Shown here one piece after another: positions 10,387 to 19,645 of a stretch of 64,000 nt of DNA. A program made the translations under genes and the position numbers. The notes beneath the pieces are model-generated. The model ran no database searches. It was not told where the DNA came from and saw only the letters and a list, made by a program, of their open reading frames with translations. The stretch is from an uncultured Pelagibacteraceae bacterium (GTDB taxonomy: Bacteria > Pseudomonadota > Alphaproteobacteria > Pelagibacterales > Pelagibacteraceae): the NCBI GenBank assembly GCA_902569105.1, contig CACFTE010000001.1, positions 62,001-126,000 of the forward strand, given 5' to 3'. The number at the start of each line of letters is the position of its first letter. Position 1 is the first letter of the stretch.

Positions 10387-10698
10387 ATGAAAATAAAACT
10401 TAGCTTTTTATTAATATTAAATTTTATAGTATTTAATCAATCACTTTCAGACGAAAAATTTAATCTAGGAAAAGAAATTTTTTTGAACAGTGGTAACTGT
10501 ATGGCTTGCCACTCACTAAAAGATGCAGGTTCTGTTGCCAATGTGGGACCAAATTTAAATGAAATAAAGCCTGATTTAGGTAGAGTAGTAATTTCAGTTA
10601 CCAATGGTGCTGGAGTAATGCCTTCGTATTTGGGTATTCTTTCTAAAGATGAAATTGAAGCAGTAGCATATTATGTTTCAGAATCCTCTATGAAATAA
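10387..10698 (+). CDS. Periplasmic class I cytochrome c, candidate PuuD partner
   Basis: A 103-residue monohaem cytochrome c with a signal peptide of about 21 residues (cleavage after QSLS). The haem motif is CMACH at residues 38-42, and the probable axial methionine is M78 in GAGVMPSY. The mature protein is about 82 residues, a minimal class I fold. It lies alone on the plus strand, ending 2 bases from the convergent allantoinase gene at the edge of the purine island. Because the PuuD-like urate oxidase at 18199 lacks its cytochrome domain, this protein is a candidate electron acceptor for it; that link is inference from position. It could instead serve another dehydrogenase. Confidence 0.88.
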   Translation: MKIKLSFLLILNFIVFNQSLSDEKFNLGKEIFLNSGNCMACHSLKDAGSVANVGPNLNEIKPDLGRVVISVTNGAGVMPSYLGILSKDEIEAVAYYVSESSMK

Positions 10699-10700
10699 TT

Positions 10701-11603
10701 TTAAATATTGTGATTAGTTATCCAGTAATTCGCAATTTCTTCTCTTTTACAAACCCACACTTTATCTTTACTCGTTATATAATCTAAAAATTTCTTCAAG
10801 GATTGTATTCTTCCAGGTTTGCCAATTATTCTACAATGTAAACCGATTGACATCATTTTAGGGTTTTCGTTTCCTTCCTCATACAATATGTCAAAGCTAT
10901 CTTTCAAATAATGAAAAAATTGATCACCATAATTAAAACCTTGGCTTGTCAGAAATCTCATATCATTATTATCTAATGTGTATGGTATCATAAGTTGTTT
11001 TTTCTTTCCTTTAATTTCCCAATATGGGAGATCATCACTGTATGTATCACTACAATATAGAAAATTTCCATTTTCAATTACTAGATCTAAAGTATTAGGG
11101 CTGCATCTACCGGTATACCAACCTATAGGTTTTTTTCCAAAAATTTTTTCAATACTAGCAATAGCTTTTTGCATATGTTTTTTTTCAATTGACTTAGAAA
11201 TATTTTGATAATCTATCCACCTCCATCCATGAGACGCTATTTCGTAATTAGATTTTTTTATTTCATTGCAAACTTCAAGATTTCTCTCAAGAGCCATACT
11301 AACTCCAAATATTGTTAAAGGAAGATTATAGCTTTTAAATAATTCATTTATTCTCCAAAAACCAACTCTTGACCCATATTCGTAAAGTGACTCCATATTG
11401 ATATGACGTGCCTTTATCGCTTTAGCACCAATTATCTCTGACAAAAAAATTTCAGAGAATTTATCTCCATGCAAAATAGAGTTTTCTGCACCTTCTTCAT
11501 AGTTTAATACAAATTGTACTGCAATCCTTGAATTATTTGGCCATTTTACTTCCGGAGGGTTTGATCCATAACCTAGCATATTTCTTGGATATTTTTTTTT
11601 CAT
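10701..11603 (-). CDS. puuE: Allantoinase PuuE (polysaccharide-deacetylase fold)
   Basis: A 300-residue enzyme expected to hydrolyse allantoin to allantoate. It is the metal-independent deacetylase-like type rather than the amidohydrolase type. Diagnostic blocks are PRNMLGYGSNPPEVKWPN at the start, FVLNYEEGAENSILHGD, YGSRVGFWR near residues 76-84, ASHGWRW near 123-129, GWYTGRCSPNT and the late GLHCRIIGKPGR. Assignment to PuuE rather than a sugar deacetylase rests on these blocks and the operon. It is the last gene of uraD-alc-allA-puuE, overlapping allA by 4 bases. With the upstream UraD it would carry flux from OHCU through allantoin. Confidence 0.92.
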   Translation of the reverse strand: MKKKYPRNMLGYGSNPPEVKWPNNSRIAVQFVLNYEEGAENSILHGDKFSEIFLSEIIGAKAIKARHINMESLYEYGSRVGFWRINELFKSYNLPLTIFGVSMALERNLEVCNEIKKSNYEIASHGWRWIDYQNISKSIEKKHMQKAIASIEKIFGKKPIGWYTGRCSPNTLDLVIENGNFLYCSDTYSDDLPYWEIKGKKKQLMIPYTLDNNDMRFLTSQGFNYGDQFFHYLKDSFDILYEEGNENPKMMSIGLHCRIIGKPGRIQSLKKFLDYITSKDKVWVCKREEIANYWITNHNI

Positions 11604-12094
11604 TTTGATAAGTAGATTTTTTCTTTTTTAAAATAATGAATAATTAAATTTTTACCTTTTCCTTTTCTATCAATTACTAAAAAATTCATATCTTTTTTTG
11701 ATATAAGAGGAAAATGCCAAATTCCTGGGTTTAAATTTATACCTGTTTGTTTTGGTATTCTAAATGACTCTATTTTTTTTAAATTTGGCTTATTACCCTT
11801 TGGTGCAACAAAAACTAAAAATGAAGTTTCTTTCATAGGTATAAATGCTTGACTTCCTAGTGGGTGCTTCTCCATCATATCAATTTTCATTGGAAATCTT
11901 CTTTTTTTCGCAGAAAAAATACTAACTATAGTTTTACCATTTTTTGATGATGTATCTATTTTTCCAAGATTATCATATCTTTTTGCAAACCCATTGTTTA
12001 TTTTAAAATATTTTTTTTTACTTGTATCAATAATCTGTCCAAAATTTTTAAAGTTTGTTTTATTTACATTTTTCGGTTTTATTTTTACTATCAT
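11600..12094 (-). CDS. allA: Ureidoglycolate lyase
   Basis: A 164-residue cupin-fold enzyme that splits ureidoglycolate to glyoxylate and urea, the final step of the pathway here. Family features are the FGQIID start of the fold, the MEKHPLGSQAFIPM block at about residues 74-87, the FLVFVAP strand, and NLNPGIWHFPL near residues 120-130. Length matches the usual 160-170 residues. It overlaps its neighbours by 4 bases on both sides in the leftward operon, which suggests translational coupling. Its substrate is the product of the adjacent allantoicase. Position and pattern agree well. Confidence 0.92.
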   Translation of the reverse strand: MIVKIKPKNVNKTNFKNFGQIIDTSKKKYFKINNGFAKRYDNLGKIDTSSKNGKTIVSIFSAKKRRFPMKIDMMEKHPLGSQAFIPMKETSFLVFVAPKGNKPNLKKIESFRIPKQTGINLNPGIWHFPLISKKDMNFLVIDRKGKGKNLIIHYFKKEKIYLSK

Positions 12095-13077
12095 TTTACC
12101 ACTTTACCAAATGCTCTTATTCTTGAAATACCACCATCAGGAAAAATATTTATTTTTAATAAGTTTACTTTATTTTTATTATTTTTATTACTTTTAAATA
12201 AATGTTTTTTATGAGGCTTTAATTTTTTTTTTTCTAGAAAGATTTTCCAATTTTTTGAATTTTTTAAAATTTTTTTTGTATTTAGTTTATTTGGTACTAA
12301 TGCTGCTTGAACTGTAAGGGAGTCTGGATAATTTCCTTTAAAATGATGTGTATCAATCTCTAATTTATTAATTATTCCAGGCTTACCAAATTTTATAATT
12401 ATCCAATCAAAATTTTTACCTCTACTTCTTCTAGTTTCCCATCCATCACCCATATTTACTCCAGTTCCAGGACTAAGAACATTTTCTGCTTTACCAAAAT
12501 GTTCATTATTACAACCAAGAATTGTAGATCCATTTAATATTGAGCTTAAATTTACGTTTTTCCCACTAAGATTAATTTTATCTAAATCTACAATTCCATT
12601 AAGTCTTATTCGAGCAACACCACCATCAGGAAAAATATTCAACTTAATGAAATTAAATGTTGAGTGATTATTTATCTTAAAATTATGATTTCTATCTGGA
12701 CCAAGTTTTTTTTTACTTAAAATAGTTTTCCAAATTGTTTTTTTCGTAGGATTCTTTTTTGAGTAACATGCCTCCAATGAAGCTTGAGAGGGATGATTAC
12801 CTGAAAAATAAGATGTATCGATATCTACATTGAATATTTTACCAGGTCTTCCTAGTTTTATAATTAAAAAATCATGACCATCTTTCCTTTTTCTTCTTGT
12901 TTCCCAACCATCCATCCATTTCCCATGTTTGTCATAAACTCCTTCTTTGAAGACTGGTTTAACTGCATTTAGAATTCTATTTGCTGCGCCAAAAAACTCA
13001 TCAGTTTTGTAAATAATTTTAGAACCAAATTTTGTTGCAGCTAAATTAACAGTGCTTTTAAATTTTATTTTTTTCAT
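12091..13077 (-). CDS. alc: Allantoicase
   Basis: A 328-residue enzyme that cleaves allantoate to ureidoglycolate and urea. Two homologous jelly-roll repeats are plain in the sequence: the first has DGWETRRKRKDGHDFLIIKLG and FPDGGVARIRLNG, the second DGWETRRSRGKNFDWIIIKFG and FPDGGISRIRAFG, each with a conserved H-F/Y-x-G-N-x-P loop after the ID strand. Length fits the family. It lies between uraD and allA with 4-base overlaps on both sides. Using allantoicase, rather than allantoate amidohydrolase, means nitrogen leaves as urea and not as ammonia at this step. No urease gene is seen in this window. Confidence 0.94.
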   Translation of the reverse strand: MKKIKFKSTVNLAATKFGSKIIYKTDEFFGAANRILNAVKPVFKEGVYDKHGKWMDGWETRRKRKDGHDFLIIKLGRPGKIFNVDIDTSYFSGNHPSQASLEACYSKKNPTKKTIWKTILSKKKLGPDRNHNFKINNHSTFNFIKLNIFPDGGVARIRLNGIVDLDKINLSGKNVNLSSILNGSTILGCNNEHFGKAENVLSPGTGVNMGDGWETRRSRGKNFDWIIIKFGKPGIINKLEIDTHHFKGNYPDSLTVQAALVPNKLNTKKILKNSKNWKIFLEKKKLKPHKKHLFKSNKNNKNKVNLLKINIFPDGGISRIRAFGKVVK

Positions 13078-13571
13078 TTTGTAAATAATTCATTTAGTCG
13101 GAATAGGGCAATTTTTTTAACTTGGCTTTTTGCTTCCTTGAATTCTAATTCTATATCATTATTAATTCTTTGTCTAAAATTATTTAATATTTCGATTTTA
13201 TCTTTACCTTTCACGGCTAAAATAAATGGGAAACCAAATTTTTTTTCATATTCATCGTTGAGCTTTTTAAATTCGACATATTCTTCCTCAGTGCAATTTT
13301 TAAGATTTGCTCGAGATTGCTCGGTACTTGAATGTTTGGTTAAGTTTTTTTCTACTGCTAATTTAGGATGAGATCTTAAAATATCTAAAATTTCTATTTT
13401 TTCTGCAGCATCATATATTTGGATCATTTTATATATTAAATCATCTTTATTTTTAAATGGTTTATGGTCTAAAAGTTTCTCTGCTATCCATTGTGTTTTT
13501 TCAAAAATAACTCCAAACAAAGATATAAATTTATCTCTATTTAAATTATTAAGATCATTTTCTAAGCTCAT
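13074..13571 (-). CDS. uraD: OHCU decarboxylase (uricase pathway)
   Basis: A 165-residue all-helical enzyme converting 2-oxo-4-hydroxy-4-carboxy-5-ureidoimidazoline (OHCU) to S-allantoin. The catalytic histidine is H68 in RSHPKLA. The later E-Q-S-R-A-N-L motif and the FGFPFILAVKGK block around residues 113-124 are characteristic, as is RIxND before the last helix. It is the first gene of the leftward operon and overlaps alc by 4 bases. It faces uraH, the preceding enzyme in the pathway, across a 65-base divergent promoter region, so both halves of the pathway may be switched together. Confidence 0.93.
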   Translation of the reverse strand: MSLENDLNNLNRDKFISLFGVIFEKTQWIAEKLLDHKPFKNKDDLIYKMIQIYDAAEKIEILDILRSHPKLAVEKNLTKHSSTEQSRANLKNCTEEEYVEFKKLNDEYEKKFGFPFILAVKGKDKIEILNNFRQRINNDIELEFKEAKSQVKKIALFRLNELFTK

Positions 13572-13636: not shown

Positions 13637-13987
13637 ATGACCAAATTAACTACACATGTTTTAGATATATATTCTGGAAAACCAGGAAACGGAATAAAAG
13701 TTGATTTATTTTATATCAATGAGAATGAAAGGATAAAATTGAACTCTATAGTTTTAAATTCTGATGGAAGATCAGACCGCCCTCTTATTGAAAAAGATAA
13801 TTTTAAAAATGGAAAATATGAACTAGTTTTTTATATAGGGGATTATTTTAAAAGTATTCTTAAATCAGAAACTATTCCATTCCTAGATGATGTTATTATA
13901 AGATTTGGAATTTCAAAAAGTAATGAGCACTATCATGTTCCGTTGCTAGTATCTCCCTGGAGTTATTCAACATATAGAGGGAGCTGA
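13637..13987 (+). CDS. uraH: 5-hydroxyisourate hydrolase (transthyretin-like)
   Basis: A 116-residue enzyme that hydrolyses 5-hydroxyisourate to OHCU. Family marks are the opening LTTHVLDIYSGKPG with H7, the S-D-G-R central block with RSDRPL, the HYHVPLLVSPW segment near residue 95, and the C-terminal tetrapeptide YRGS that distinguishes these hydrolases from vertebrate transthyretin. Length is typical. No signal peptide is visible, so it is cytosolic. It is the first gene of the rightward operon and overlaps xdhA by 1 base. It would act on the product of PuuD from the same operon. Confidence 0.96.
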   Translation: MTKLTTHVLDIYSGKPGNGIKVDLFYINENERIKLNSIVLNSDGRSDRPLIEKDNFKNGKYELVFYIGDYFKSILKSETIPFLDDVIIRFGISKSNEHYHVPLLVSPWSYSTYRGS

Positions 13988-15420
13988 TGGTTTCCAATAC
14001 AATTAAATTTTTATTTAATAATAAAATATTTAAATTAAAAAATCCTGATCCAAATAAAACAATTTTAAATTTTATTAGAAACGACTTAAAAATGACTGGT
14101 ACGAAGGAAGGTTGCGCTGAAGGAGGGTGTGGTGCATGTACGATAGTATTAGGTGAGCTTAATAAAAACAAAATAGTTTATAAAGCTATAAATGCTTGTA
14201 TTAGTTTTTTACCAATTTTAAATGGAAAACAATTAATATTAATTGAAGATTTAAGTAATGGAAAAAGTCTTCATCCTGTTCAAGAGGCAATGATTAAATT
14301 TCATGGTTCCCAATGTGGCTTTTGTACACCTGGATTTACAATGTCTTTATTTTCAATGCATAAAAATAATAGATTGATTAATAATGAGATAGTTGAAGAA
14401 GCTTTATCAGGAAATTTATGCAGATGTACTGGCTATAGACCAATAATTGATGCCGCTAAAAGCTTGAACAATAAAAATGATCGTGATCAATTTAAAAAGG
14501 AACAAAATAATACTGTTAAATTATTAAAAAATATTAAAAGTATCGATATAGAAATTAATAATAAAGGTAAAAAATTCTTTGCACCAAAAACAATTAGTAA
14601 TTTAAAAAAATTATTAAATAAATATCCAGATGCGAAAATTCTGAGTGGAGGAACCGATCTTTCTCTTGAAGTAACAAAATTTAGAAAAGAAATTAAAACA
14701 ATTATTTCATTAAATTCTATTGAAAAATTAAATTTTATAAAAAAAAATAGAAATTTATTAGAAATAGGTGCCACAACATCCCTTTTTGAATTTCAAAACG
14801 TTATTAAAAATTATTTTTTAGATTTTCACGATATATTAAAAAGATATGGGTCCTTACAAATAAGAAATGTAGGCACAGTTGCAGGAAATATTGCAACAGC
14901 ATCACCTATTGGAGATACACTACCTTTATTGCTAACACTTGATGCAAAAATAGTTGTTCAAGGAAAAAATCAAAAAAAAATTTTTTCTCTAAATGAATTC
15001 TTTATTTCTTATAGAAAAACAAAACTGAAGAAAGGTGAATTTATATATTCAATTAAAATACCGATCAACAAAGATAATATTTTTAAAGCCTATAAAATTT
15101 CAAAAAGGTTTGATGATGACATTTCTTCAGTTTGTGGGTCATTTAGTTTTTTAATTAAAAAAAATAAAATCACAAAAGCTGCAATAGCTTATGGCGGCAT
15201 GTCTGCAATTCCTAAAAGAGCATCTGCAATTGAAAAAAAACTTATAAATTCAGAGTTCACTGAAAACTCATTTAGTAATGCTATTGATTTAATAAATAAA
15301 GATTTTTCACCATTAGATGACATGCGGGCAAGCAGTGAGTATAGATTGGCTGTAGCTAAAAATTTATTATTAAAAGCTTTCTATGAAATAAAGAACAAAC
15401 AAACAATAAGAATTAATTAA
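13987..15420 (+). CDS. xdhA: Xanthine dehydrogenase, iron-sulfur/FAD subunit
   Basis: A 477-residue subunit with three regions. The N-terminal plant-type ferredoxin domain binds the first [2Fe-2S] cluster through C43, C48, C51 and C71. The second [2Fe-2S] domain has C110, C113, C145 and C147 (CGFCTPG and CRCTGY). The FAD-binding CO-dehydrogenase-flavoprotein domain starts near residue 190 and includes LSGGTDLSLEV, NVGTVAGNIATASPIGDTLP and a C-terminal domain. It passes electrons from the molybdenum subunit to FAD and NAD+. Length and order match the bacterial XdhA type. It overlaps uraH and xdhB by 1 base each. No xdhC chaperone gene is visible here. Confidence 0.95.
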   Translation: MVSNTIKFLFNNKIFKLKNPDPNKTILNFIRNDLKMTGTKEGCAEGGCGACTIVLGELNKNKIVYKAINACISFLPILNGKQLILIEDLSNGKSLHPVQEAMIKFHGSQCGFCTPGFTMSLFSMHKNNRLINNEIVEEALSGNLCRCTGYRPIIDAAKSLNNKNDRDQFKKEQNNTVKLLKNIKSIDIEINNKGKKFFAPKTISNLKKLLNKYPDAKILSGGTDLSLEVTKFRKEIKTIISLNSIEKLNFIKKNRNLLEIGATTSLFEFQNVIKNYFLDFHDILKRYGSLQIRNVGTVAGNIATASPIGDTLPLLLTLDAKIVVQGKNQKKIFSLNEFFISYRKTKLKKGEFIYSIKIPINKDNIFKAYKISKRFDDDISSVCGSFSFLIKKNKITKAAIAYGGMSAIPKRASAIEKKLINSEFTENSFSNAIDLINKDFSPLDDMRASSEYRLAVAKNLLLKAFYEIKNKQTIRIN

Positions 15421-17738
15421 TGAGAAACGAGGAATTATTAAAAGGTCAAAGCATACCTCACGATAGTGCATCAAAGCATGTATCTGGCTTTGCCCAATAT
15501 ACTGATGATATTGCCGAACCTTCTAATACTTTACATGGTGCAATTGGATGGAGTGAGAAAGCTCATGCTAGGATAAAAAAAATTGATTTGAGAGATGTAG
15601 AAAAAAGTGAAGGAGTAATATCGGTTGTAACCTTTAAAGATATTCCAGGACGTAATGATGTAGGTCCAGTATTTGATGGAGACCCAATATTTCCCAAAAC
15701 AAAAGTTGAATATTTTGGCCAACCATTATTTGCAGTTGCGGCAACTACCACAGAATTTGCAAGAAAAGCAGTTTTAAAAGCTAAAATTACTTATTCTGAA
15801 TTAAAACCTATTATAACCATTGAAGAGGCGCTTAAAAAAAATAATTTTCTTTTTAATCCAAGAATTATCAAAAAAGGAAATCCACAAAATAAAATTAATA
15901 AGTGTAAAAATAAATTAATTGGTAAATTTAATACAGGTAGCCAGGAACATTTTTATTTGGAGGGACAAGTTTGTTTAGTAATTCCTCAAGAAGACAAAAA
16001 TTTGCAGGTTTATAGTTCAACCCAACATCCTTCTGAAACACAGCAAATCATTGCGAAGATGCTAAAACAGAAAAGCAATTCAATAACAGTTACAGTGAGA
16101 AGAATTGGCGGTGGATTTGGTGGTAAAGAAACAAATTTTATGACAGCAGCTATCTGTGCATTGTTATCTTACAAAACAAAACAACCAATTAAGCTTAGAC
16201 TAGATAGAGATGATGATATTATATTAACAGGTAAACGGCACGATTTTTATTCTGAGTATGAAGTAGGATTTAATGATAACGGGAAAATCGAAGGATTAAA
16301 ATTAAAACTTGCATCTAGGTGTGGAATGTCGCCTGATCTCTCATATGCAATTAATGAACGAGCGTTATTACATTTAGATAATGCATACTATTTATCAGAT
16401 TTAGAAGTTAAAAATTATTTGTGTAAAACAAACACATCATCCTCAACAGCATTTAGAGGATTTGGGGGTAATCAAGGTATGATGGTAATAGAAAATATTA
16501 TAGATAATATTTCACGATTTTTAAAAAAAGACCCTAGTGATGTTAGAAAAGAAAATTTTTACGGTCAAAACGTAAATAATATTACTCACTATGAGATGAA
16601 AATTAATGATAACGTAATCCACGATATTTTTAAAAGTCTGTTAGACAAATCCAATTATAAAAAAAGATACAATCAAATTAAAAATTTTAATATTAAAAAT
16701 AAATTTAAAAAAAAGGGGATAGCTCTAACCCCAGTCAAATTTGGAATATCTTTTACTACAATTCATTTAAATCAAGCTGGTGCATTAGTACACATATATA
16801 CTGATGGGAGTATACACCTCAATCATGGAGGTATTGAAATGGGGCAGGGTACACACACAAAAATAGCCCAACTTGTTGCAAATACATTTGGATTACCATT
16901 CGAAAAAATACAAATATCCTCAACAAATACCTCAAAAGTTCCTAACACATCAGCTAGCGCAGCATCATCTACAACAGATTTAAATGGAGCAGCAACATTA
17001 AATGCAACAGAAAAAATTAAAACAAATCTAAATAATTTTATTAAAAAAAAATATAATATTTTATCTAAAATTGAACCTGTATATAGAAATGAAAATATTT
17101 ATATCGGCAATAGAACTTTCAATTTTAAAAAAATTATTCAAGAGGCCTATTTAAATAGAATTTCTTTATCTTCATCTGGTTTTTACTCAACTCCAAAAAT
17201 AAACTTTGATAAGCAGAAATTTAAAGGGAGACCATTTTATTATTTTTGTTATGGTGCAGCTGTAACTGAAGTAACAATTGATACACTTACTGGAGAAAAT
17301 AAAGTAGACAGAGTTGATATAATTCATGATGCAGGCAATGCGATTAATCCAGCTCTTGAACTTGGACAGATAGAAGGTGGATTTGTTCAAGGACAAGGAT
17401 GGCTTACTATGGAAGAAGTGGTTTGGGATAAATCTGGAAAATTAAGAACTTATTCACCATCTACTTATAAAATTCCAGCTGTAACAGATACTCCAGATGA
17501 ATTTAATGTAGAAATTTTTAAAGGAGGTTCCAATGTTGAAAATGTTGTTAATAAACAAAAAACCACAGGAGAGCCTCCATTGATGCTTGCCATGAGTGTT
17601 TTCTTTGCAATTAAAGATGCAATAGCATCTATTTCAAACTATAAAAAAACACCTGAACTTGATGCACCTGCAACTCCTGAAAAAATATTAATGAGTATAA
17701 ACAAATTAAAAAGAAAAATTAAATCTAATGGAAAATAA
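15420..17738 (+). CDS. xdhB: Xanthine dehydrogenase, molybdopterin-binding subunit
   Basis: A 772-residue catalytic subunit that oxidises hypoxanthine and xanthine to urate at a molybdenum cofactor. Visible landmarks are HVSGFAQYTDD at the N-terminus, RRIGGGFGGKE around 235-245, the TAFRGFGGNQGMMVIE block near 345-360, EMGQGTHTKIAQL near 475, and TTGEPPLMLA near residue 725, which carries the catalytic glutamate (GEPP). Length is normal for the split two-subunit form. It overlaps xdhA by 1 base and guaD by 11 bases, so equal synthesis is likely. Molybdenum cofactor genes are not in the window. Confidence 0.95.
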   Translation: MRNEELLKGQSIPHDSASKHVSGFAQYTDDIAEPSNTLHGAIGWSEKAHARIKKIDLRDVEKSEGVISVVTFKDIPGRNDVGPVFDGDPIFPKTKVEYFGQPLFAVAATTTEFARKAVLKAKITYSELKPIITIEEALKKNNFLFNPRIIKKGNPQNKINKCKNKLIGKFNTGSQEHFYLEGQVCLVIPQEDKNLQVYSSTQHPSETQQIIAKMLKQKSNSITVTVRRIGGGFGGKETNFMTAAICALLSYKTKQPIKLRLDRDDDIILTGKRHDFYSEYEVGFNDNGKIEGLKLKLASRCGMSPDLSYAINERALLHLDNAYYLSDLEVKNYLCKTNTSSSTAFRGFGGNQGMMVIENIIDNISRFLKKDPSDVRKENFYGQNVNNITHYEMKINDNVIHDIFKSLLDKSNYKKRYNQIKNFNIKNKFKKKGIALTPVKFGISFTTIHLNQAGALVHIYTDGSIHLNHGGIEMGQGTHTKIAQLVANTFGLPFEKIQISSTNTSKVPNTSASAASSTTDLNGAATLNATEKIKTNLNNFIKKKYNILSKIEPVYRNENIYIGNRTFNFKKIIQEAYLNRISLSSSGFYSTPKINFDKQKFKGRPFYYFCYGAAVTEVTIDTLTGENKVDRVDIIHDAGNAINPALELGQIEGGFVQGQGWLTMEEVVWDKSGKLRTYSPSTYKIPAVTDTPDEFNVEIFKGGSNVENVVNKQKTTGEPPLMLAMSVFFAIKDAIASISNYKKTPELDAPATPEKILMSINKLKRKIKSNGK

Positions 17739-18198
17739 ATCAAAATTTATGTTAAGAGCGATAGAGCTATCAATTCAGAGCGCAAAAGCAAACGGAGGTC
17801 CTTTTGGTTGCGTAATTGTCAAAAATAATAAAATTATTGCCGAAGGTTTTAATCAAGTAACGTCTAATAATGATCCAACTGCTCATGCGGAGATTGTAGC
17901 TATAAGAAATGCATGTCAAAATCAAAATAATTTCTTCCTAAAAGAATGCGATCTTTATTCTACATGTGAACCGTGTCCAATGTGTCTTTCTGCAATTTAC
18001 TGGGCACATATTGAAAATATTTATTACGCTAATACAAGATTGGATGCAAAGAATATTGATTTTGATGATTCTTTCATTTACTCAGAAATAAATAAAAAAA
18101 TAAATTCTAGAAAAATAAAAATGTATCAAATGCATCGAGATGAAGCTTTGGAAGCATTTAAAATCTGGGATAAGAAAAAGGATAAAATTAAATATTAA
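17728..18198 (+). CDS. guaD: Guanine deaminase (cytidine-deaminase fold)
   Basis: A 156-residue zinc enzyme, the same length as Bacillus GuaD, that would convert guanine to xanthine with release of ammonia. The zinc site is H53 with the proton shuttle E55 (PTAHAEIVAIR) and C83/C86 in CEPCPMC. The tail has the D-x-S-F-I-Y and E-A-L-x-x-F pattern of this subgroup. The close relative TadA (tRNA adenosine deaminase) shares the fold, but the position between xdhB and puuD makes guanine deaminase the better call. It overlaps xdhB by 11 bases and abuts the puuD start. Confidence 0.88.
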   Translation: MENKSKFMLRAIELSIQSAKANGGPFGCVIVKNNKIIAEGFNQVTSNNDPTAHAEIVAIRNACQNQNNFFLKECDLYSTCEPCPMCLSAIYWAHIENIYYANTRLDAKNIDFDDSFIYSEINKKINSRKIKMYQMHRDEALEAFKIWDKKKDKIKY

Positions 18199-19110
18199 AT
18201 GGATATTCTAACTTATACAATAAAGTGGTCTGAGATTATTTTAAGATGGGCGCACGTACTCTTTGCTATTCTATGGGTAGGTAATAGTTTTTTATTTAAT
18301 TATTTAGACAACAAATTAAATAAAAAAATCACTAGTAAAGACATCGATGGTGAAGGTTATTTGATGCATTCAGGTTTTTTTTATAAGCTCTCAAGACTTA
18401 AAACATCTCCTGATAGTATTTATCTTAAACAACTAGTAATATTTAAGTGGCAAAGTTACCTAACATTCATAACTGGAATTTTACTCCTTTTTGTAATTTA
18501 TTACTACAACGCAGGCGTTTTGATGGTTGATAAAAGAGTACTAATTATTTCACCAACCTCAGCTATTTTATATTCAGTTCTCTCGTTGGTAATTTCTTGG
18601 TTTATATATGATTTTTTATGTAAATCCGATTTAATTAAAAATGAGTTCTTATTTCTTACTACAATGTTAATATTGTTAACCGTTTTAACTTTTGGTTTAA
18701 CAAAAATATTTGGTCCAAAGTTTGCAATTTTAAGTGTAGGATTAATAATTGGCTCAAATATGTTTGCAAACGTCTTTACAGTTATAATTCCTAACCAAAT
18801 GAATATTATAAACAGTAGCAAAAGATCCAAAAAATTTGATATGAGTCTCTCTCTAGCAGCAAAACAAAGATCGATACATAATAATTATTCTACTTTTTTA
18901 GTTTTATTTATAATGTTGTCAGGCCACTCTAGTTTTTTAGTTTATCATAAATATAATTGGGCAATATTTGTATTAATTGGAATAATTTCAGTTTTAGCAA
19001 GACATTATTTTAACCTCAGAGGCAGAAACATTCACAGGTTGCATTATTTAGTAGCATCAATAGTTGCTTTGATAATTCTAGCGGCTATAATTTTTATTTT
19101 CAAAAATTAG
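18199..19110 (+). CDS. puuD: Membrane urate oxidase PuuD, lacking cytochrome c domain
   Basis: A 303-residue integral membrane protein matching the N-terminal urate-oxidase domain of PuuD, which oxidises urate to 5-hydroxyisourate. Conserved blocks are ILRWAHVLFAILWVGNSF near residues 14-31, GEGYLMHSGFFYKLSR, KWQSYLTFITG, the NVFTVIIPNQ motif, and RSIHNNYSTFLVLFIMLSGH near residues 223-242. About eight helices are predicted. Characterised PuuD proteins continue into a C-terminal cytochrome c domain of about 100 residues; here the gene stops right after the last helix with no haem motif, and the next gene is a phosphoribosyltransferase. The small cytochrome c at 10387 may replace it. It abuts guaD with no gap. 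Confidence 0.9.
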   Translation: MDILTYTIKWSEIILRWAHVLFAILWVGNSFLFNYLDNKLNKKITSKDIDGEGYLMHSGFFYKLSRLKTSPDSIYLKQLVIFKWQSYLTFITGILLLFVIYYYNAGVLMVDKRVLIISPTSAILYSVLSLVISWFIYDFLCKSDLIKNEFLFLTTMLILLTVLTFGLTKIFGPKFAILSVGLIIGSNMFANVFTVIIPNQMNIINSSKRSKKFDMSLSLAAKQRSIHNNYSTFLVLFIMLSGHSSFLVYHKYNWAIFVLIGIISVLARHYFNLRGRNIHRLHYLVASIVALIILAAIIFIFKN

Positions 19111-19120
19111 TCTTTTTTAA

Positions 19121-19645
19121 ATGTCAGAAAAATTGATTGTAAGCTGGGAGGAATACAACAGAACTGTTGAGAAACTAGCTGTTCAAATTGATGAGAGTGG
19201 ATATAAGCCTACAATATTAATAGGTATAATGCGGGGAGCGGCTCCTATGATAGATGTTTTAAGTAGAATATTTAAATTGAAGTGTGCATATCTCGCAGTG
19301 GAGTCTTACAGCGGAAAAGGAATTGAAGATGAACAAGGCGATATTGTTTTTTCAAGAGAAATGAGTTCAATAGCTCCTAATATGGGTGGAAGAATTTTAT
19401 TATGTGATGATTTATCTGATACAGGAATTACATTCAACAAAAGTATCGATTGGTTAAAGCAATATGGTCCAATCAAAGGAAAAATTGATGATATTAAAAC
19501 TGCAACATTATGGAAAAAACAAAAATCAACTTTTGAGCCTGATTTTTGTGCTGTAAAATTAGATTCAAATCCTTGGATTGTACAGCCTTTTGAAATCTAT
19601 GAAGAAATTAGAATTGAAGATATTAAAAAAAAACATCAAAAATAA
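19121..19645 (+). CDS. Purine-type phosphoribosyltransferase
   Basis: A 174-residue type I phosphoribosyltransferase. The PRPP-binding motif is ILLCDDLSDTGITF at about residues 90-103, with the acidic pair followed by the S-D-T-G loop. The first conserved loop is ILIGIMRGAAPM, and the C-terminal hood has the NPWIVQPFE motif seen in xanthine/hypoxanthine/guanine transferases. It probably makes nucleotides from purine bases and PRPP, giving a salvage branch beside catabolism in the same operon. The exact base preference cannot be read; PRTases of this group can also be nucleoside-independent regulators. It starts 10 bases after puuD and is followed at once by a strong terminator hairpin. Confidence 0.82.
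   Translation: MSEKLIVSWEEYNRTVEKLAVQIDESGYKPTILIGIMRGAAPMIDVLSRIFKLKCAYLAVESYSGKGIEDEQGDIVFSREMSSIAPNMGGRILLCDDLSDTGITFNKSIDWLKQYGPIKGKIDDIKTATLWKKQKSTFEPDFCAVKLDSNPWIVQPFEIYEEIRIEDIKKKHQK

Follow-up and report, generated by a model that had tools for sequence, protein, structure and literature searches.

Purine cluster of the window

The window, by which we mean the whole 64-kb stretch of SAR11 DNA analysed here, carries a cluster of purine catabolism genes arranged as cytC, then puuE-allA-alc-uraD on the reverse strand, then uraH-xdhA-xdhB-deaminase-puuD-phosphoribosyltransferase on the forward strand (Table 1). It is the SAR11 purine catabolism operon reported earlier (Haro-Moreno 2020, PMC7318151; Braakman 2025, PMC11698098), and in the latter work the gene at 18199-19110 is listed as urate oxidase PuuD. 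Within the cluster PuuD alone is a membrane redox enzyme, the other enzymes being soluble and cytoplasmic, and separate permease genes are present in the cluster region. The cytochrome gene cytC lies outside the puuD transcription unit, about 7.5 kb away, with a glycosyltransferase gene and puuE as neighbours. In SAR11 genome G912 (C14:27939-28834) puuE is interrupted (two TGA and three TAA codons in the matched stretch), which is likely to reflect a pseudogene or a sequencing error.

Table 1. Genes of the purine cluster, with positions in the window and the basis of each assignment
Gene	Product	Position	Strand	Basis
cytC	103-aa secreted monohaem SorU-like cytochrome c	10387-10698	+	PF13442/PF00034 above cut-off; CMACH at 10498-10512
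puuE	PuuE-type allantoinase (polysaccharide-deacetylase fold), convergent with cytC	10701-11603	-	PF01522; cluster context
allA	Ureidoglycolate lyase	11600-12094	-	NCBIfam matches down to E 3.7e-50, below curated cut-off
alc	Allantoicase	12091-13077	-	TIGR02961 above cut-off
uraD	OHCU decarboxylase	13074-13571	-	TIGR03164 above cut-off; PF09349
uraH	5-Hydroxyisourate hydrolase (acts on the product of PuuD)	13637-13987	+	TIGR02962 above cut-off
xdhA	Xanthine dehydrogenase FeS/FAD subunit	13987-15420	+	Translation read; same order in relatives
xdhB	Xanthine dehydrogenase molybdenum subunit	15420-17738	+	Translation read; same order in relatives
	Purine (guanine-type) deaminase	17728-18198	+	PF00383
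puuD	Single-domain eight-helix urate oxidase without cytochrome c domain	18199-19110	+	PF06181 full length; eight-TM model; no CxxCH; family-invariant residues kept
	Purine phosphoribosyltransferase	19121-19645	+	PF00156

A complete membrane domain without a cytochrome c domain

The puuD frame runs from ATG to TAG and encodes 303 amino acids. Its product matches the Urate_ox_N profile of Pfam over positions 2-293 of 295 (282.7 bits, E 4.8e-84; cut-off 26.9), and an AlphaFold model built from 46 family members (mean pLDDT 77) shows eight long helices, the last of which (helix VIII, residues 281-302) coincides with the end of the chain. With this full-length, eight-helix match above the curated cut-off the protein belongs to the Urate_ox_N family, and the preliminary description, which had seen a membrane urate-oxidase domain of 303 residues ending just after the last helix, was right. 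It was equally correct in noting that a different gene follows within 10 bases of the stop, the gap before the phosphoribosyltransferase start (19121) being 10 bases long, and that neither the protein nor the short gap behind it holds a haem motif. CxxCH is absent from the protein and from all six frames between 18.9 and 20.0 kb of the window, by which a frameshifted or displaced haem motif near the gene was ruled out. Searches of structure space with the membrane domain gave nothing below E 0.6 in Foldseek and a best Z of 7.0 in VIA-align, no higher than is common for helical models, and phmmer returned no significant match of the protein in PDB.

PuuD as described by Doniselli et al. 2015 (PMC4562309) combines the DUF989/Urate_ox_N domain with a C-terminal cytochrome c. 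The window protein resembles it in the complete eight-helix domain, in the retention of the membrane-domain invariant residues (H19, H57 and H227 are among 33 columns that do not vary in 46 sequences), in its place in a purine operon that contains uraH and uraD, and in the absence of a Uox-type uricase from the genomes, but differs in that no cytochrome c domain, with its CXXCH and Met ligand, is present on the same chain. Across 46-66 family members, fused and unfused, R16, H19, W26, H57, Y101, N191, Q200, R224, H227, N228 and Y230 are retained, among others. Nine otherwise nearly constant positions, among them W54, W81, W90, P76 and P234, are altered in SAR11.

Within the genus puuD is present in 54 of 201 genomes. 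All complete SAR11 (Pelagibacteraceae) copies with a checked start are 302-303 aa long, lack CxxCH and fall into one clade, so the possibility raised beforehand, that relatives carry the cytochrome fused and the window holds a broken copy, does not apply. Uniform length in SAR11, the invariant residues kept, the full purine operon and the lack of a detected Uox together argue that puuD has not decayed, and on this sequence evidence the window gene is intact. A search of 14 genomes for uricases of the Uox type (PF01014), as distinct from the flavin types HpxO and HpyO, gave no match, and PuuD is therefore likely to be the urate oxidase of SAR11. We consider it improbable that puuD has been truncated and survives as a remnant that no longer oxidises urate, whether non-functional or turned to another use, e.g. 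as a urate or purine transporter. The several altered positions that are constant in fused PuuD would agree with such a remnant; it is opposed by conserved length, low divergence and the retention of all family-invariant histidines, by the fixed operon position near uraH and uraD, whose substrates arise from urate oxidation, by the failure to find Uox in the 14 genomes, and by the separate permease genes.

The sole long frame within SAR11 (449 aa; genome G983, L147:3790-5139) was rejected as a fused PuuD. It is a read-through without CxxCH, in which a small deletion removes the end of helix VIII and sets puuD in frame with the phosphoribosyltransferase gene, and it may be a biological fusion or an assembly error. 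Most SAR11 and sister-family genomes also encode frames of about 200 aa that match part of Urate_ox_N (roughly positions 157-250; L015-L030), and the window genome encodes none. These are perhaps the short four-helix DUF989 proteins of PMC4562309. Such proteins, like the window PuuD, have no cytochrome domain; unlike it, they are partial matches in unrelated contexts, whereas the window protein is a full-length domain in a purine operon.

PuuD architecture beyond SAR11

That PuuD normally carries a C-terminal cytochrome c was supported by wider surveys. The 385 genomes of the class (Alphaproteobacteria) gave 92 strong matches, of which 89 belong to open frames at least 395 aa long, the exceptions being the window genome, genome G228 (308 codons) and one copy cut by a contig end. 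The corresponding figure for 398 genomes of the phylum (Pseudomonadota) is 117 of 119, with the window genome and one cut copy as exceptions. CxxCH occurs in every one of the 52 long copies inspected, so the refuting case named in the preliminary description, a majority of single-domain homologues, does not hold. A highly divergent fused relative of about 823 aa (24% identity, CxxCH at 750) was seen in a small genome (G333, L078:6717 onward).

In the membrane-domain tree the SAR11 proteins group as a single clade (100/100) that arises from within the fused ones, although long branches call for caution. The fused or single trait needs a minimum of two changes on this tree, and by bracketing the fused form is indicated as the ancestral state. 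A second single-domain clade (L077:7771-8682, L278-L290) takes in all PuuD genes detected in two genera of an alphaproteobacterial family whose other genera have fused PuuD. Its members end at the last helix, contain no CxxCH and always adjoin uraH; no cytochrome c gene was found within about 4 kb of them, and most of the nine positions altered in SAR11 are retained in this clade (G228). Judged from these sequences, at least two lineages lack the cytochrome domain that has been described as an invariant part of PuuD.

A SorU-type cytochrome c in the cluster

Haem-c scans of the genome and of the window led to cytC. Its motif at 10498-10512 is the sole CxxCH that falls within a real gene anywhere in the 64-kb window, and 10387-10698 is thus the only haem-c gene there, which the first reading of the DNA had overlooked. 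The earlier wording that PuuD is without its cytochrome c domain consequently holds for the polypeptide but was incomplete for the cluster; it probably means that the cytochrome resides on a separate polypeptide.

CytC has a signal-peptide-like N-terminus, the haem motif CMACH and the Met motif GVMP, and exceeds the cut-offs of both Cytochrome_CBB3 and Cytochrom_C in Pfam. Among PDB entries it is closest to SorU of Sinorhizobium meliloti (4PW9/4PWA, E 2.4e-19), with which it shares 54% identity (E 3e-26), and its identity to SAR11 cytochromes linked to apr genes is 58-65%. Similarity to the cytochrome domains of fused PuuD is insignificant in blastp (E 0.016 or worse), and in the tree these domains constitute a clade apart from the CytC/SorU-like kind (99/96), the placement of CytC inside the SorU-like group being poorly resolved. 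SorU takes up electrons from the sulfite dehydrogenase SorT as a diffusible, external and transient acceptor (PMC4760952). CytC is likewise a secreted monohaem cytochrome c with CxxCH and Met that groups with SorU and not with the fused PuuD domains, and in both cases enzyme and diffusible acceptor are separate; cytC differs from the SorU gene in lying in a purine cluster with no SorT-type molybdenum enzyme gene beside it.

Since CytC is SorU-like and set apart from the fused PuuD domains, a replacement in trans is indicated rather than a fission. That the cytochrome domain of PuuD was cut off, moved and became the stand-alone CytC would fit the shared compartment, haem type (CxxCH and Met) and gene cluster; the far closer relationship of CytC to SorU and the apr-linked cytochromes than to the fused domains, and the separate clade of the latter, largely refute this origin, which we regard as extremely improbable.

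Association of cytC with puuD

Among SAR11 clusters that are intact and have distinct PuuD sequences, 50 of 65 contain cytC and 15 do not; most other puuD contigs stop short of its place. A strong cytC orthologue was detected in 43 of 54 genomes with puuD and in 3 of 147 without it (odds ratio 188, p 8e-30, with no correction for relatedness). As a test of linkage between cytC and the allantoin genes, puuE was searched in 201 genomes. Nine genomes have puuE on a contig other than that of puuD, and in each of them cytC stands beside uraD on the puuD contig. Considering genomes with puuE only, cluster-type cytC is present in 38 of 46 that have puuD and in 1 of 14 that do not (again uncorrected for relatedness), and in the single exception it adjoins a uraD cut by the contig end. 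The assignment of cytC to the allantoin gene block was rejected on these grounds, as the gene stays with puuD and uraD and is nearly absent from genomes having puuE without puuD. An independent-pairs test of puuE against cytC offered too few pairs.

Six intact clusters in the 201-genome sample are devoid of cytC, and five of these six genomes have another SorU-family cytochrome elsewhere: G849, G867 and G945 carry the same cytochrome beside AprBA sulfite-oxidation genes, while G923 and G978 carry a SorU-family paralogue, which is sorT-linked in G923. In the sixth, G940 (87% complete), no SorU-family cytochrome was found. Any SorU-family cytochrome occurs in 14 of 147 genomes without puuD (uncorrected for relatedness). 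Clusters without puuE contain cytC in only 12 of 24 cases, and the partner would therefore be not obligatory, or interchangeable.

Proposed two-protein urate oxidation

We think it fairly likely that SAR11 possesses a functional PuuD which has lost its fused cytochrome c domain and whose electron-accepting role has been taken over in trans by a SorU-type cytochrome. Besides the association with cytC, several points were counted in favour of such a partner: no other enzyme of the cluster is a membrane redox enzyme, fused PuuD always comes with haem c, purine use is impaired in a ccmC mutant of S. meliloti (PMC4562309), and SorU acts on SorT as a diffusible external acceptor. Counted against it were the finding that urate use in A. 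fabrum is not specifically inhibited by azide (PMC4562309), the SAR11-altered PuuD positions, the distance of cytC from the puuD transcription unit, the puuE-less clusters with cytC in half of the cases, the second single-domain clade with no cytochrome c nearby, and genome G940.

The last two, together with the 15 intact clusters missing cytC and the presence in the window genome of genes for a 181-aa CycM-type cytochrome c and cytochrome c1, would also suit a different arrangement, in which an active single-domain PuuD draws on the common pool of respiratory cytochromes (membrane-anchored CycM-type c552 or cytochrome c1/bc1) or on quinone, and CytC serves otherwise or is one of several interchangeable carriers. 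This arrangement is possible but rather unlikely, as cytC remains with puuD and uraD when other pathway genes move away, a SorU relative exists elsewhere in five of the six genomes whose clusters lack cytC, and the other enzymes of the cluster, soluble and cytoplasmic, need no periplasmic cytochrome.

In the preferred scheme of a cytochrome acting in trans, loss of the C-terminal cytochrome c domain would have occurred in the SAR11 lineage. The eight-helix core would convert urate to 5-hydroxyisourate on the cytoplasmic side, as suggested by the function of the family in A. fabrum and by the adjacency of uraH and uraD, whose products would then complete the conversion to allantoin. Electrons would cross the membrane to the periplasmic side, with the conserved histidines as candidate haem or substrate ligands. 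There a small diffusible periplasmic SorU-type cytochrome c, encoded by cytC or, in some cells, by sulfite-oxidation clusters, may accept them; its reduction is suggested by gene linkage and by the fused domain whose place CytC takes. The cytochrome would finally feed a terminal oxidase. Urate oxidase activity in SAR11, electron transfer to CytC and onward transfer to an oxidase are what we infer. The broader proposal, that PuuD and the SorU-like protein form a two-protein system in which urate and sulfite oxidation share the cytochrome as an interchangeable carrier in the periplasm and the PuuD core alone is a complete urate-oxidising, transmembrane electron-delivering unit, seems to us evenly balanced between right and wrong.

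The SAR11 purine operon and its PuuD have already been published; what is new is the single-domain form, with a plausible two-protein design. A text search of PMC7318151 and PMC11698098 gave no mention of a cytochrome, and in the literature covered, to which subscription journals mostly did not belong, no description of a full-length single-domain PuuD or of a cytochrome partner was found. For the presumed hand-over of electrons from PuuD to its cytochrome domain and then to respiration, overexpression in E. coli failed and the azide result was ambiguous (PMC4562309). Where enzyme and cytochrome occur naturally as two polypeptides, the electron acceptor of PuuD becomes testable by an ordinary acceptor-reduction assay. 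If the scheme is true, electrons from purine use in SAR11 would enter respiration straight at the level of cytochrome c, besides the NADH of current ecological models.

SorU-type cytochromes in sulfite oxidation clusters

In some SAR11 genomes (L097:3333-9106, L098, L148, L150, L151) genes aprM-aprB-aprA, a TauE-type sulfite exporter gene and a GD_AH (SuyB-like) gene adjoin the gene of the same SorU-type cytochrome, which suggests that the Apr cluster for sulfite oxidation includes a cytochrome as acceptor. In others (L171:4040-5611, L099, L100, L154, L155) a gene for a SorU-like cytochrome c comes immediately after one for a SorT-like molybdenum sulfite dehydrogenase.
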